From Exophiala sp. HKRS030 (Eukaryota > Ascomycota > Eurotiomycetes > Chaetothyriales > Herpotrichiellaceae), in the NCBI GenBank assembly GCA_023897205.1, contig JAHWDD010000006.1:1178001-1242000 (forward strand): a stretch of DNA of 64,000 nucleotides, given 5' to 3'. Positions 10,059 through 17,149 of this stretch are shown one piece after another (within the stretch, counting starts at the first letter, position 1; every line of letters begins with the position of its first letter). The notes beneath the pieces are model-generated. The model ran no database searches and was not told the origin of the DNA. It saw nothing but the letters and a program-made list of their open reading frames with translations. The translations under genes and the position numbers were made by a program.

Positions 10059-10522
10059 ATCGTTCGCTGGCTGAAACAGGTAGACTTGAGAAGGGGCGTC
10101 AGTAAGAATTGTGGCGGGTTTAGGAAATACTGTAGAAGTACAAGTTTGGTGTTTGAAGATGGAACGCGTTTTGTTTGGGGTTCCAAGTGTCCGGGGCAAC
10201 GAGGAGTAACGCAGTAATCACGACTCCGTAGTCGTTGTGCCAAGACGTCTGTCTGTTCTGTCTTGGACTTCAGCCTCCGGATTCATCGTTGGTCCGTCCA
10301 TCCATATCTCGTCGTGCTCCTGAACTGACTAGAAAGAAAGAAAGTTGAGCCCCTCCAGAACAAAGATTAAACTATGATGAACTATCGATGACGGCAAGTC
10401 AATAGATCATCATTGCCACGCTGACCCCGTCTGGCCGAAACCCGGCACCGGGGAGACCTTCACGCGAACAGTCTATGAGTCTCATTCCCTCTTAAGCGAG
10501 ACTCTCTATTGATGTCCAGCTC
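10059..10522. promoter_or_regulatory. Divergent spacer, TPX2-like gene / TRAPPC13
   Basis: Contains the 5' regions of both genes. A (GAAA)n tract lies at about 10331-10344. The 10059-10199 part is open in the TPX2-like frame but is probably UTR. Confidence 0.45.
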
Positions 10523-11646
10523 ATGGCCAGAGCCAGGGCTGATACAGGCGGGTTTCCCAAGGAGCCTCACTCGGTGTCCCTCAAGGGTGAGTTTGTTGTC
10601 GTTTGCAATTACAATTTCTTATTGTGCTAATACAATTAGTTCTAAGGTATTTTGGTGCTCCCAAGGTCACTCATAGCATTTCTTTCTAATCACCGTTCTC
10701 ATCCAAAATTAGGCTCTCACGACCATCACTAGCCCAACAACACCCGCTGCCACGCGAGAGTGAGACCAAGATACCACAAGCAGCTTCCGCTGCATATCCA
10801 AGCGATACCACCGACCAAGAGTTCGTCCTCTCCGGTAATCTTGGGCTTCCGCCTTCTTTTGGCTCAGCTCATGTAGGGGAGACTTTTTCGTGCGCACTTT
10901 GCGCCAACAATGAACTTCCACCAGGCCGAACTTTCAAATCTGTGTCCGGCACCAGGATTATCGCGGAAATGCAGACTCCATCCCAATCTGTCCCGTTGGA
11001 ACTCCTTGCTGCCGATGCCGAAGAGGACCAAGCAGACCCCAATAGATCGCTACAGAGAATAATCCAATTCGATCTCAAGGAGGAAGGCAACCATGTCCTT
11101 GCAGTCAATGTTTCATACACAGAGACAACGTCTGGCGATGGTCAGGCAACCAGTGGAAAGGTACGGTCATTTCGAAAGTTGTACCAGTTTGTTGCTCAGC
11201 CATGTCTGAGCGTGCGGACGAAAGCAACGGAGCTTCCATCAGTCGAAGTTCCTGATAAAAGCCATGGCCCATATGGAAGGGCAATTCTAGCTCGGTACGT
11301 GCTGGAAGCTCAGCTCGAAAATGTGTCCGACAGTTCGATTGTTCTTGAAGAGGCACGACTCCAGGCCAAGGCACCTTTCAGAGCCACATCTCTTAACTGG
11401 GATGCGGAAAGGGATGCTGGAGTCGAAGTTCAAAACCCTTTCGTGAATGTTAGAGACATTATCCAAGTAGCTTTCCTCGTAGAGCAAGAACAGGATGTAT
11501 CTGAAGGGCTCGAGGAATTACGTTCTAGTATGAGAAGGGAGGGCAGAGCAGTGCTAGGCCAACTGGCCATCCAATGGCGGACATCCATGGGTGAACGAGG
11601 TGCTTTGAGTACAGGGAATCTTTTGACGAGGCGGAAGGTGTCATGA
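10523..11646 (+). CDS. trappc13: TRAPP complex subunit 13 (TRAPPC13, DUF974)
   Basis: Three exons by my reading: 10523-10586, a 7-nt microexon 10640-10646 (TTCTAAG), and 10713-11646. Introns are 53 nt (GTGAGT...TTAG, branch CTAAT) and 66 nt (GTATTT...TTAG, branch CTAAT). The joined frame gives 334 residues starting MARARADTGGFPKEPHSVSL, then KVLRLSRPSLAQ, corresponding to the conserved animal TRAPPC13 motif LALKVMRLTKPTL. Later family features are GETFSCAL, FRKLYQF, LEAQLEN and WRTSMGERG. TRAPPC13 is a subunit of TRAPPIII, the Rab1/Ypt1 exchange complex in ER-Golgi and autophagy traffic. The fungal protein is shorter than the human one at its C-terminus. The 3' end faces a DENN gene only 45 bp away. 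Confidence 0.88.
10640..10646 (+). other. trappc13: Seven-nucleotide microexon of TRAPPC13
   Basis: TTCTAAG lies between an acceptor (CAATTAG, branch TGCTAATAC) and a donor (GTATTT). It supplies the last two bases of a Val codon, a Leu codon and the first two bases of an Arg codon, restoring the conserved KVLRLSRP motif. Skipping it would shift the frame, because 7 is not a multiple of 3. Confidence 0.82.
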
Positions 11647-11691: not shown

Positions 11692-14600
11692 TCATGGTGC
11701 ATGCATGCTGAGCCCGTTCATCTTCCCAGCCACGGTACTGACCCTTAACTTCCTCGGCTTGATCGCTGGTAGATCAGGAACTGTCTCCTCCTGCTTGAAC
11801 AAGCCATCTTCCAGCTTGGCGGGAGTTCGTGTGATGATGCTGTGGTAGTCTCGCCCCTTTGCCGCCGACCCGATTTCTGGTCTTTCAGTGCCTCCTGGTA
11901 TCGCGATGATGCGCCACTGGTGTTGCGACGTGTCAGAGAGTACGTCGGTCTTCATGATCCCAGACACTGATCTCGAAACGAGACTCTTTCGTCCAAGGCC
12001 TGACAGAGATGACCTGAACCCTGCTCGTCCTCGTTTGGCCGCGATGATGGCGTCAAATAGAGCTACCGAAGGTTTCGTGGAGTTCTCCTCGCGATCCATG
12101 ACAAATTCGTTCCACGCTTGTGTTTGTTGGAGCATTTCCATGTAAGCTGCGTGATCGGGAGGTAGGGATCGAATGAACGTTTCACTTTCGAGTTGATAGA
12201 CAGCCCCGAGCTTTCTCTTTTGAGGTGGTGCGGGATACATGAATTTCCGATAGGTGTAGAAAAGGCTTGCCAGGCATCGGACGAATGCTGCTCGAACCTG
12301 GTCGGGATAGAAGGCTGACGAGCAGACGATGGTGATCAGAGAAGCGCACCGGTCATGAATGACAAATCCACACCCAGAGCACCGGTAGTAGCCGTCTTGG
12401 GCTTTCTCATCACAGAGAACACAAGTTGAGGGCCCATCGGTTCCTCGCCATTGCAGGCAATGCCCTTCGACCCAAAACGTGGAATCTGTATTTGTCGCTG
12501 CATGGTGGACGTGCATATGCGGCATTATCGTCGATGCGGCCAAAGTAGATTGGGCATACGTAGAAGGTGCATAAGTGGATGCGCTGCGCATGTCCGGGGA
12601 TGAGATTGTCGAAGGACTTGCATTGTGTCGTACAAAGGGGAGACTAGCCTTTCTTATCATGTGTGTGGATCCAGAGAAACTTCGTTTTGACATGGAATCG
12701 AAATGACCTGATCTCTTCTCTCGCAGAGTCGTTTGTAAACTATACCCTGAATCGTTGCGAGGTGATCCATTACCAAGGCCATAGGAGAAGCCTCCTTTAA
12801 TGGGAGACATTCCATCCGAGTCCGTGTGGAAAGACTGCCGGGCGGTAACAGTTGAGGCTGTTCTGGGCCGATCGATACTCTTCCCCCGAGTTGGCCCCCC
12901 GCTCAAGAAGACATTCAACATTGGTGCACGCCGAATCATATCTGAAGCAGCCTGTGGGCCGAAAGACGTCGAGCTCAAACTGGCCAACTTATCTAAATTT
13001 GTCGATTTAGCGATGGCCGTGAAAGGGGTCTCGATCTCCGCCGAGAAGGCATCATGGGGAAAAGTCTCTGCCGCGTAAGGCGTGCTCCCTGGTGCCACTC
13101 CAAAGCTGTGATGTAGCGGCGCCGCCTGATGTAAAAGGGATATCAATTTCCTTCTTTGTTGTTTCGGCAAATTCGGTGGCGGCCCGACGCTATGCAATTC
13201 ATTCTTGTCGAGATCAACTAGGACAAAGTCGTCTTCTGGCAGGTCATACTTTTCGTACTTGCGGTTGATACCACAAATGTACGGGCAAGGCGCATCGAGT
13301 GCCTGGACAAGTCGTGATGGTAATACAGGAATGTACACCCCGGCCCATTCAAGTGGCCATATCAGATCCAAAATTGCTTTGCTGACTAGTTGAAGCATGG
13401 ATGTGTGTGAAGAAAGTAGGATGATTCTGGATTCGGCCAAGACATATTCGAATAATAATACAATGTTGGGAATAGTGAGTGTTCTGAACAAGGGGTACAG
13501 ATCGGTTGTTCGACTGCCAGGCAGTTCGTTTGCAGCTTCCTTCTTCGCGTACAGTTTGAGTTCTCGTATCGACACCTGGACTTGAACTTTTGAGGACAGT
13601 GGACTGGGGGCCTCCATACATAGGCTAAAAACGTAACGTTCCAAAGGTTGCCACATGCCGACTTTAGGTGAGCTGGGGGGAACTCTGAGGATTCCACCAT
13701 CCGTCATGGGAACCACGACAGCGCGCAACCATTGTCGCCAGAAATTGATCGATGAGGGCTCTTTTCCGAGGATCCCGTAGGCTCTAGGAATCCAATACTG
13801 TGTTTCACCAATGCCCAGACCTTGGATATCAGTCACCGAGCCGTGCCGCAGCGGTCGCAACATATCAGCCATCATGCTGATCTTCTCTTCGACGGCACTG
13901 ATATCATCCTCTAGCTGCTCTCTTTCTTGGGAGTCTGGAGATACCTCGGGAAGTTGTGCCAGCAATCGTGACAACTTGGCACTTTCAGTTGTCAATCTCT
14001 CCTCGAGAGAAGAGGCCAGTTCTCGTTCCGCGTCGGACATGTGTGCATTCCTCCACTCGTCGCATTTCTTCTCAAGGTCCGATGCCAACTGACGGCTCAC
14101 CGGGATCCACAATGTAACTTGGACAGCGAATATCCTGGAGCCGTCGGAGGCGGTCATAGAAAACTCATGCCACGTCGACCTAGGCCTGGAGTCGGCGCAA
14201 ACGACCTTGATATCGTTAGGGAATGCAAACATGGGCACATATTCTGGAAATGGCCCTCGTCCTTTCATGTGATCGAACGTTGACTTGCGAGGATACCTCT
14301 CCAATAGTACGGGCTCGAATTTACGTGTCAATGGATGCTCGTCTGGAGGAACGCGCAACATTTCTGGACTAGGTATTACCGAATTGTAGCTGCTCAATCT
14401 GCGCGATGTTCGGGTTGAGGTGTGTCTCGCCACGGATGGTTGTCGTTTTGTGCTGCTCATATCTTTGAAGGACATGTGTCTGCGGATGCTGCCAAAGTTG
14501 CGATTCGGTAGGGGAGACAGTTCGTCCTCGAGCACAATCTTCTGCGTCTGAGGCCGTGACTTGGGCCGAGATTGCTTGGCTGTCTCTGATGCATTGAAAC

Positions 14601-15057
14601 TGAGGTCGAGGAAAAAGGTGTCTCGATCCGTCGCAAACCTTTTCATTGCCCTTTCGAAGTCTGCTTCACTCAAGGCAGATGACATGCGAGGACCACCAAT
14701 TGGAGCGGGCGGTCGAATGGTCATACTGCTTCGGTTGCTTCTCGGTGATTGCGCCACATCATTCAAACTCTGGATAGCGTCCCTAGCCTCGTCCGAGAGT
14801 TGAGACAGTCTTTGATATGAATCATGTCTCGAGTGGTGGGGAGAAGTCGGGGGCGATTGAAGAATCGAATTTTGGTCGTCTTTGTCATTTGTCGTCGGTT
14901 CCTCCTTTATCGGCACATCAATACCGTTGCTGTCATTAAAGTCGTAAGATAGTCTGGGTTGGGAAAAGGCATCCACCAGCTGTTGACTGTCCAGGCCGGC
15001 AATCCAGAAGTAGTCGGCCAGTGGCCGTGAAGATTCCCTTGATTCGTTTGGGGCCAT
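11692..15057 (-). CDS. DENN domain protein with embedded C1 zinc finger (Rab GEF-like)
   Basis: Intronless, 1121 residues from the ATG at 15057 (MAPNESRESSRPLADYFWIA); the open frame extends ten codons upstream without an ATG. Order: Ser-rich N-terminus (1-235); uDENN (about 240-320) with a coiled-coil insertion (325-400); cDENN (about 420-615, including VLLFEYVLAESRIILLSS and the WPLEWAGVYIPVLPSRLV core); a 240-residue disordered linker; a C1/phorbol-ester-type zinc finger (about 866-912, CVLCDEKAQDGYYRCSGCGF with later HDRC and C); dDENN (about 915-990); and a basic tail. DENN proteins exchange GDP for GTP on Rab GTPases; the C1 could bind lipid. The adjacent TRAPPC13 also belongs to Rab activation, though linkage may be chance. 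Confidence 0.88.
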   Translation of the reverse strand: MAPNESRESSRPLADYFWIAGLDSQQLVDAFSQPRLSYDFNDSNGIDVPIKEEPTTNDKDDQNSILQSPPTSPHHSRHDSYQRLSQLSDEARDAIQSLNDVAQSPRSNRSSMTIRPPAPIGGPRMSSALSEADFERAMKRFATDRDTFFLDLSFNASETAKQSRPKSRPQTQKIVLEDELSPLPNRNFGSIRRHMSFKDMSSTKRQPSVARHTSTRTSRRLSSYNSVIPSPEMLRVPPDEHPLTRKFEPVLLERYPRKSTFDHMKGRGPFPEYVPMFAFPNDIKVVCADSRPRSTWHEFSMTASDGSRIFAVQVTLWIPVSRQLASDLEKKCDEWRNAHMSDAERELASSLEERLTTESAKLSRLLAQLPEVSPDSQEREQLEDDISAVEEKISMMADMLRPLRHGSVTDIQGLGIGETQYWIPRAYGILGKEPSSINFWRQWLRAVVVPMTDGGILRVPPSSPKVGMWQPLERYVFSLCMEAPSPLSSKVQVQVSIRELKLYAKKEAANELPGSRTTDLYPLFRTLTIPNIVLLFEYVLAESRIILLSSHTSMLQLVSKAILDLIWPLEWAGVYIPVLPSRLVQALDAPCPYICGINRKYEKYDLPEDDFVLVDLDKNELHSVGPPPNLPKQQRRKLISLLHQAAPLHHSFGVAPGSTPYAAETFPHDAFSAEIETPFTAIAKSTNLDKLASLSSTSFGPQAASDMIRRAPMLNVFLSGGPTRGKSIDRPRTASTVTARQSFHTDSDGMSPIKGGFSYGLGNGSPRNDSGYSLQTTLREKRSGHFDSMSKRSFSGSTHMIRKASLPFVRHNASPSTISSPDMRSASTYAPSTYAQSTLAASTIMPHMHVHHAATNTDSTFWVEGHCLQWRGTDGPSTCVLCDEKAQDGYYRCSGCGFVIHDRCASLITIVCSSAFYPDQVRAAFVRCLASLFYTYRKFMYPAPPQKRKLGAVYQLESETFIRSLPPDHAAYMEMLQQTQAWNEFVMDREENSTKPSVALFDAIIAAKRGRAGFRSSLSGLGRKSLVSRSVSGIMKTDVLSDTSQHQWRIIAIPGGTERPEIGSAAKGRDYHSIITRTPAKLEDGLFKQEETVPDLPAIKPRKLRVSTVAGKMNGLSMHAP

Positions 15058-17149
15058 CGCTACGCATTGAGGTATCGGACTTGACAATTGCTAGGATGGC
15101 ATTCACTGCATGATTTTCTGGCGGAAGAAAAATGCCTTGTCAGGTGGGAAATTTTTTTGCTGGACGGCAAGAAATGGTGCTGTGGTCGTTTGCAGGGTTG
15201 TGTCGAGATGCCAAAAAAGTATCTATGGATGGCTTATCATTGCTGAGGTGAAGTTCACTGACTATTCCTCACCATCGAACAGCGAGAAACACTGCCAGTC
15301 CTGATCAGCACAAATTTCGGTACGTTTTTCTGGCGAGTTTGGGTCTCTGAAACCTTTACCGAACAGGAATCGGCTCGCCTGCTGCACAGAGAGAGAGAGA
15401 GGGAGAGGGACAGACGGATTCAGAAAGATGGAGTTCGCGATCGGGATATCCGTACAGTAACTGAAAACGCTCTGGCTGGACGTGGCAACAAGGATTGGGC
15501 GAGGAATAGAAAATGGATACTGACAAGGTGAACCCGGCGTCGGGTAGTGAAGTAGCCAGGGGGACGTTGAGGGTACGAAGTAGGAAAAGAGAAGATCGTA
15601 CTCGCGCCAACTGAAAGACAAGGCCCAGGACGAACTAGCTGAATCGGTTTTGAAGTCGGCAGGATGTGAACCTTTGCTATCTCCACCACGAGATAGAATT
15701 AGAATTATACAGTAGGAATTCAGGATTCAGAGAAGCGAGGGGAAAGGGAAAATGGGTTTTGCATGATGCTGGAATGACAGAGGGACATTTTTCTTTGAGG
15801 CAACAATGGGCGAGAAAGACGAGTTACTAAGAGAATTCTGCAGTCAACGCGAGACAGATCGCGACTATGGAGTAAAAGTGAATTTGATTGACCTCTAGGC
15901 TGTTCTAGGGGGATCTTTAGGGTATCACTAGGGCACCTTTAGGGCTCCTTGAGGTTTCTCTCTTGGGTTTTCTGCACCTACAGTACACCATAAACCGTAC
16001 CTAAGGTACCTTAGGGGGCATATCAACAAGTAGGTACCTAAGGTCTGGTCTGGTATACGGAGTAAAACTCTCCTATCGCATCAAATCGAATAAACTCATA
16101 CTCCTTACCCCCTGTCTGCATACTTTATAATTCTCTCGTCACCGTTCCTGTCACATATCGAGTCTACTTCCCGCGTACGAGTAGTTAGAACGCCATTGGA
16201 CCTTGACATTATGGCTTGTGGCGTTTTTGGGATCTTCAGCGTCTACTGTAGCAGAGGACATTCGCATCAGTGGATCGTTCGTTGCGAAATGCGCGTCCAG
16301 GCCAAACCTCGTTTCTAGCTAGTTGCCCACCTTTGCCCTAAAACCCCAGCGCTAAAAGGGCACGGAGCGAGTCGGTCTAGTTAAAGATAGTAAATACGTT
16401 GCCCCTGGCATGTTTCATTGTGCCTTTAGCCTATACCGTGTCTCTCACTTCTCTAACTAGAGGTAGTAGATTCGACACGGGATGACAACTTTTGTATGTA
16501 GGACACACACGAGGTGACCAAAGCATGTAAGAGTGTCAACATGTGTACGAGTAGAATGGTCGTGTCGTTCTCTCGTGTCTAGCCGTCACAAAATCCCCCG
16601 ACATATGCACATGCAACTTTCAAGCATCATTCAATCAGCGTCCAGAAGAACCCATGTCTCTCTCACCCATCCCTGCATTGCTACCTACATTGGCGTCATG
16701 CACTCTGCAAGTGTGGCAATCGATATTACCCCATGCTTCTGACATGCAGATGGAACACTCATCCTGTGTAACGTGTAACTATCTCGGACTTCTGCATAAG
16801 AAATAAGAGGCCCCTTTGCCACAATCTCCATGGCGAACACCAAACCGAGAACCAAGGGAGCGATATTAATGGTGTACGGAATTTAGTACAAAAAGACACA
16901 CCAGCATGCGGGGGGGCGGCTCCTTCAGAGTCCACACTCGAATCGACGTCTCCGAACTCATCACGCTCTGAGGACAACCTCAGGTGGTATGACTTGACTG
17001 AGCTACGTATGACAACATTGCGCGAAAAATGTCGACGCTTACTCCCTCCGTCCTCATATATGAATGAACCGTTGTCCAAACATACCGTACCGGTTCTGAA
17101 TCTACACAATCGCTGACCTTGCAGACTACTCTTTTTTCCCCTCGCAGTC
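15058..17149. other. 2.1-kb intergenic region with palindromes
   Basis: No credible gene. The part next to the DENN gene is its promoter/5' UTR, with a GAGAGA tract at about 15390-15412. The centre is A+T-richer and has a dense cluster of CCTAAGG/TAGGTACC words including a perfect 16-bp palindrome (16000-16015), a second 10-bp palindrome (16031-16040) and the nonamer TACGGAGTA (16056-16064). An ORF on the minus strand at 16759-17199 has no recognisable domain. Confidence 0.55.
16000..16015. repeat. Perfect 16-bp palindrome CCTAAGGTACCTTAGG
   Basis: Self-complementary over all 16 bases. A related palindrome TAGGTACCTA follows at 16031-16040, and CTTTAGGG/CTAGGG words crowd the preceding 100 bases. 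It could be a dimeric protein-binding site or a genome-wide intergenic word; I cannot tell from one window. Confidence 0.8.

Follow-up and report, generated by a model that had tools for sequence, protein, structure and literature searches.

The locus considered here raises the question of whether seven nucleotides, TTCTAAG, form an exon of their own in the TRAPPC13 gene of Exophiala sp. HKRS030, and whether the use of such an exon is obligatory. The window, i.e., the whole 64,000-nucleotide stretch of DNA that was analysed, is a segment of contig C6 of an assembly comprising 59.8 Mb in 50 contigs. Comparisons of DNA and of protein models lead, with high confidence, to the conclusion that TTCTAAG is a genuine coding exon of 7 nt in a black-yeast TRAPPC13 gene and that its use is very probably constitutive.

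Gene structure and identity of the product

All parts of the gene are located on the plus strand. Exon 1 (10523..10586, 64 nt) starts with an in-frame ATG at 10523 and encodes MARARADTGGFPKEPHSVSLK and the first base of a Val codon; the residues SLK at its end are retained in homologues. Intron 1 (10587..10639, 53 nt; GTGAGT...GCTAATACAATTAG) and intron 2 (10647..10712, 66 nt; GTATTT...TTTCTAATC...AATTAG) are both of the GT-AG type, and the microexon TTCTAAG between them (10640..10646, 7 nt) completes Val22, gives Leu23 and starts Arg24. Exon 3 (10713..11646, 934 nt including the stop codon) extends from LSRPSL to the C-terminus and is open to its stop. The coordinates given in a sequence-only reading of this DNA proved exact, and GTGAGT at 10587, TTCTAAG at 10640–10646, GTATTT at 10647 and AATTAG ending at 10639 and at 10712 are all present. 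Inspection by eye places a CTAAT-like branch site in both introns; the CTAAT of intron 1 is taken to be branch-like by comparison with the consensus. With a length of 7 nt and GT-AG introns on both sides, the internal exon lies within the size range of microexons (not above 30–36 nt).

Joined together, the 64, 7 and 934 nt form a single 334-aa frame (...HSVSLK-VLR-LSRPSLAQQ...), and reconstruction of the frame bore out both the proposal that the seven nucleotides are required for the in-frame joint SLK-VLR-LSRPSL and the proposal that skipping them shifts the frame. The length of the microexon is not divisible by three and there are stops in both introns, so that the predicted protein breaks off after 27–37 residues when the microexon is skipped or an intron retained: after 27 if the microexon is skipped, after 35 if intron 1 is kept and after 37 if intron 2 is kept. 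Since each of these departures gives an early stop, the microexon is probably obligatory. The frame is also open in 21 two-exon models that begin at ATG 10523 and use other donors or acceptors; without the microexon, the frame would be kept only by cryptic sites of this kind, at the cost of conserved residues.

The assignment of the gene to TRAPPC13, made in the same reading, was supported by Pfam profiles, which place the 334-aa product in the TRAPPC13 (DUF974) family: TRAPPC13_N matches with 177.3 bits (cut-off 25.3) over positions 1–159 of the 159 of the profile, and TRAPPC13_M matches with 55 bits (cut-off 27.7). PDB sequence searches with TRAPPC13 found no matching chain; a Foldseek search of the PDB returned generic beta-domain matches whose TM-scores were low, among them yeast TRAPPII chains (ranks 11 and 17). 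The first predicted beta strand covers residues 18–24 (mean pLDDT 62 there), and V22-L23-R24 forms its second half; the seven bases would supply most of these three residues.

The second copy and the doubled gene content

The assembly contains a second TRAPPC13 copy, located on contig C3 and 74% identical over exon 3; a family profile search of the assembly did not find a third. In the C3 copy, exon 1 (L002 1254–1317) is followed by an 82-nt intron with the donor GTAAGT, the microexon TCCTAAG (L002 1400–1406), which again encodes V-L-R, a 93-nt intron with the donor GTAAGG, and exon 3 (L002 1500–2433). The two microexons differ by a single synonymous change (GTT to GTC). When the inter-exon stretches of the two copies (126 and 182 nt) are compared without gaps, the best 23-base matches span the microexon and have 21 of 23 bases identical, whereas none of 200 shuffled pairs exceeded 17 of 23; the intron sequence is otherwise hardly alignable. 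The last 12 bases of intron 1, TAATACAATTAG (10628–10639), are identical in the C3 copy and possibly form an element in which branch site and acceptor lie close together. In the whole assembly, the 22-nt pattern TAATACAATTAGTYCTAAGGTA is found at the two TRAPPC13 genes and nowhere else. The C3 copy is, in our assessment, the best evidence for the microexon. Alignment of orthologous loci had been proposed in the sequence-only reading as a check; at the DNA level, the 7-nt exon is kept in this one second copy, and beyond it conservation is deduced from protein models.

The donors of the two copies bear on the possibility that the microexon acts as a regulated switch, in which skipping or retention would lead to an early stop and lower TRAPPC13, perhaps via nonsense-mediated decay. 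The early stops predicted for the skip and retention forms would suit such a switch, as would the donor of intron 2 in the window, which to the eye looks weak (GTATTT, less strong than its C3 counterpart GTAAGG), and regulated inclusion has a precedent in the 20-nt exon of Trichoderma Xlr2 (PMC11121469). Both donors of the C3 copy, however, look strong (GTAAGT and GTAAGG) and fit steady use; a regulated switch is considered unlikely, and constitutive inclusion is the preferred reading.

The product of exon 3 of the C3 copy is identical at 311 of 311 residues to homologue P0018 (ENA source only). A 49-row tree joins the C6 copy to P0001 (Knufia peltigerae, order Chaetothyriales) and places the C3 copy, with starred support, in a group with P0010 (Exophiala mesophila) and P0020; resolution is poor at the forks nearer to the C6 copy. 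Since the C6 copy goes with P0001 and the C3 copy with P0018, P0010 and P0020, the two copies most likely stem from two separate lineages and not from a recent duplication.

The doubling extends beyond TRAPPC13. Gene content is near double for the genes tried, and not evenly so. The open reading frames of the window (1–64000) match C3:7521294-7594416 in the same order, with best matches of about 30–98% aa; 17 loci of the CCT/Hsp60 type form eight pairs (84–95% aa) and one single; and the RNA polymerase second-subunit domain has four matches in the assembly, where three would be expected for one genome and six for two. True duplication was first suggested by gene pairs on one contig. It was rejected in view of at least four internal TTAGGG arrays beside 100-N runs (C3:7520085-7520280, C2 near 3973000, C10 near 1502000 and C12 near 914900), which show that the long scaffolds may be chimeric, joined at telomeres through 100-N gaps; two further TTAGGG arrays inspected among the matches listed, on C8 and C11, are situated at contig ends. 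The doubling would be accounted for by a hybrid or by a scaffolded assembly that combines two related black yeasts, and, since searches of the assembly for COX1 and 5.8S rRNA gave no match, both the mixture and the hybrid stay under consideration. Duplication was argued against for Cladophialophora immunda in PMC4319495.

A 1,132-aa open frame on the minus strand (11692–15090 of the window), DENN-like by eye, lies downstream of TRAPPC13 and is convergent with it; this arrangement is kept on C3 (69% aa).

Homologous proteins and competing gene models

The homologues compared were the best 120 of 1,721 matches, 83 of which come from annotated genomes (ncbi source, including P0029) and 37 from jgi, lgn or ena only. 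The nearest of them, P0001, is identical to the window TRAPPC13 at 333 of 334 residues and has the correct joint. The exact SLK-VLR-LSRPSL-type joint is present in 65 of the 83 annotated-genome homologues and in 6 of the other 37 (best 120 of 1,721 matches). A further protein search, seeded with P0033 in order to leave the nearest clade, yielded mostly the same proteins and 16 new ones, 11 of them with the exact joint. The expectations that most gene finders miss the exon and that public models of this gene are probably truncated or wrong at the N-terminus did not hold for these homologues; the view that public models are mostly wrong was abandoned, and what is left of it is that models of relatives err at this single joint in 18 of the 83 annotated-genome entries (again among the best 120 of 1,721).

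In nine of these 18 models, SLK and L.RP are both retained and the joint between them is wrong; of the rest, three are without L.RP, four without SLK and two without either. They include Aspergillus (P0078, P0102, P0107), Talaromyces marneffei (P0090), Thermoascus (P0105) and several Chaetothyriales, as well as Helicocarpus and Emergomyces (P0108, P0116) of the order Onygenales. Two entries of Cladophialophora carrionii differ at the joint, P0008 having VLR and P0024 lacking it. Among the 120 listed homologues, 24 are without SLK and with L.RP, and in all 24 Arg directly precedes L.RP, as would be expected if an AG|G acceptor were read through with the frame kept; P0103 and P0105, which belong to these 24, show V-L-R there. 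The same split of the joint may be supposed for other Eurotiomycetes, with VLR in a protein model not in itself proving a separate 7-nt exon in that species. Scans of viral-contig and genome-contig collections for the TRAPPC13 DNA of relatives found no relative.

Competing structures of the gene were ranked as well. ATG starts from 10460 to 10799 and introns of at least 40 nt gave 403 open models (316 proteins), 57 with two exons and 346 with three; no open one-exon model was found among these starts. On a 36-row profile built without P0001, which, together with the alignment used for conservation and folding, was chosen by the authors and leans towards the result (exact joint in 35 of 37 alignment rows vs 70 of 119 other listed homologues), the microexon model ranked first of 316 with 580.6 bits, followed by a model with a 19-nt exon (566.8), and the best two-exon model reached 564.0. 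On a 119-row profile of all other listed homologues, with right and wrong joints alike, the microexon model was again first (583.2 vs 573.5, a lead of 9.7 bits). When the profile was restricted to the 49 homologues that lack the exact joint, the microexon model came third, in a series of scores (575.1, 574.5, 574.1 and 574.0) that do not separate; this outcome is expected because the profile has lost the joint. Pfam TRAPPC13_N, a profile that was not built by the authors, gave the microexon model 177.3 bits and the best two-exon model 160.3; with N-terminal pieces, the scores were 179.1 for the microexon model and 166.7 for the 19-nt-exon model. The 19-nt exon (10647–10665) is the one other phase-correct candidate in the real inter-exon stretch, and it was discarded as an alternative, scoring lower on the 36-row and 119-row profiles and on Pfam TRAPPC13_N.

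The best of the two-exon models dispenses with the microexon altogether and removes a single intron from a cryptic donor, GTTTGT at 10591, to the acceptor at 10712, which leaves an open frame with the joint SLK-GE-LSRPSL, one residue shorter. Similar joints are found in the models of some relatives, e.g., SLK-GR-LSRPS in P0004, and on the 49-row profile this structure is level with the microexon model (574.0 vs 574.1). It falls behind, however, by 16.6 bits on the 36-row profile, by 11.1 bits on the 119-row profile (572.1 vs 583.2) and by 17 bits on the Pfam profile; moreover, the GTGAGT situated four bases upstream goes unused in it, and it offers no explanation for the conserved TYCTAAG island. 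Splicing of a single intron is, on this evidence, very improbable, and the structure with the 7-nt exon is preferred.

The chance expectation was estimated from 20,000 dinucleotide shuffles with the donor and acceptor fixed, introns of at least 40 nt and an exon of 1–30 nt. Some phase-correct, stop-free exon of 1–30 nt appeared in 9,036 of the 20,000 shuffles; frame restoration is for this reason weak evidence, and it was rejected as a proof of the microexon. That the apparent exon is a coincidence within a single long intron of a gene that is dead or not used, as the ease of frame restoration would allow, is scarcely credible, given that a 7-nt exon spelling V-L-R arose in only 14 of the 20,000 shuffles (a conservative variant in 58), that the 334-aa frame is open and nearly identical to an annotated public protein, and that the C3 copy keeps the microexon.

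Proposed splicing and comparison with known microexons

Both introns around the microexon are short, and each is equipped with a donor, a branch-like site and an acceptor of its own; the splicing machinery most probably recognises the introns rather than the exon (intron definition). Splicing factors at both edges could hardly share a 7-nt exon. Introns 1 and 2 would be removed stepwise, one and then the other, because factors bound at both edges of the exon would collide.

In each of the orders Chaetothyriales, Eurotiales and Onygenales there are protein models that break at this very joint. The 7-nt exon may be ancient and near-obligatory across the Eurotiomycetes as a whole (these three orders), held by selection on the composite TAATACAATTAG|TYCTAAG|GTA; the chances that this broader proposal is right are put at about even. 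If it is true, the exon would offer a natural test bed for the intron-defined splicing of an exon too short for two-sided recognition. The microexon is a handle on the splicing of exons below the footprint of the splicing machinery, and gene finders and RNA aligners can usefully be benchmarked against a conserved exon of 7 nt in a trafficking gene.

Any effect of the exon on TRAPPIII is presumptive; TRAPPC13 of Aspergillus nidulans is a TRAPPIII subunit according to PMC6946167. Growth of Fusarium graminearum lacking TRAPPC11, 12 and 13 together is described as normal in PMC12578332, so the microexon need not matter for growth.

Searches of an open-access literature library turned up no paper on a TRAPPC13 microexon. 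In Schizosaccharomyces pombe, a study by Romfo from 2000 reportedly dealt with micro-exon splicing by intron definition, the same mechanism as that proposed for the TRAPPC13 exon. The statement that exons this short are rare in fungi, made in the sequence-only reading, is weakened by published exons of 1, 8 and 20 nt (PMC12940212 and PMC11121469). The 1-nt exon of Fusarium CYP621A, confirmed by RNA reads, is likewise an ultra-short exon, located in a conserved motif of a protein from a filamentous ascomycete, and its omission breaks the phase; it differs in its length (1 nt vs 7), in belonging to a P450 gene and in its confirmation by RNA, the TRAPPC13 exon being known from genomic sequence (PMC12940212). 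The 8-nt exon of Phanerochaete CYP5141A1 is of nearly equal size and also lies inside a conserved motif, but it belongs to a P450 gene of a basidiomycete (PMC12940212). The exon of Trichoderma Xlr2 is a fungal microexon as well, with a length (20 nt) that is not a multiple of three, and is absent from the JGI model of Xlr2; its inclusion, in contrast, depends on glucose, as described in PMC11121469. The 7-nt exon of TRAPPC13 is an addition to these published fungal microexons, which include shorter ones; it overturns nothing and provides a further example of a known phenomenon.
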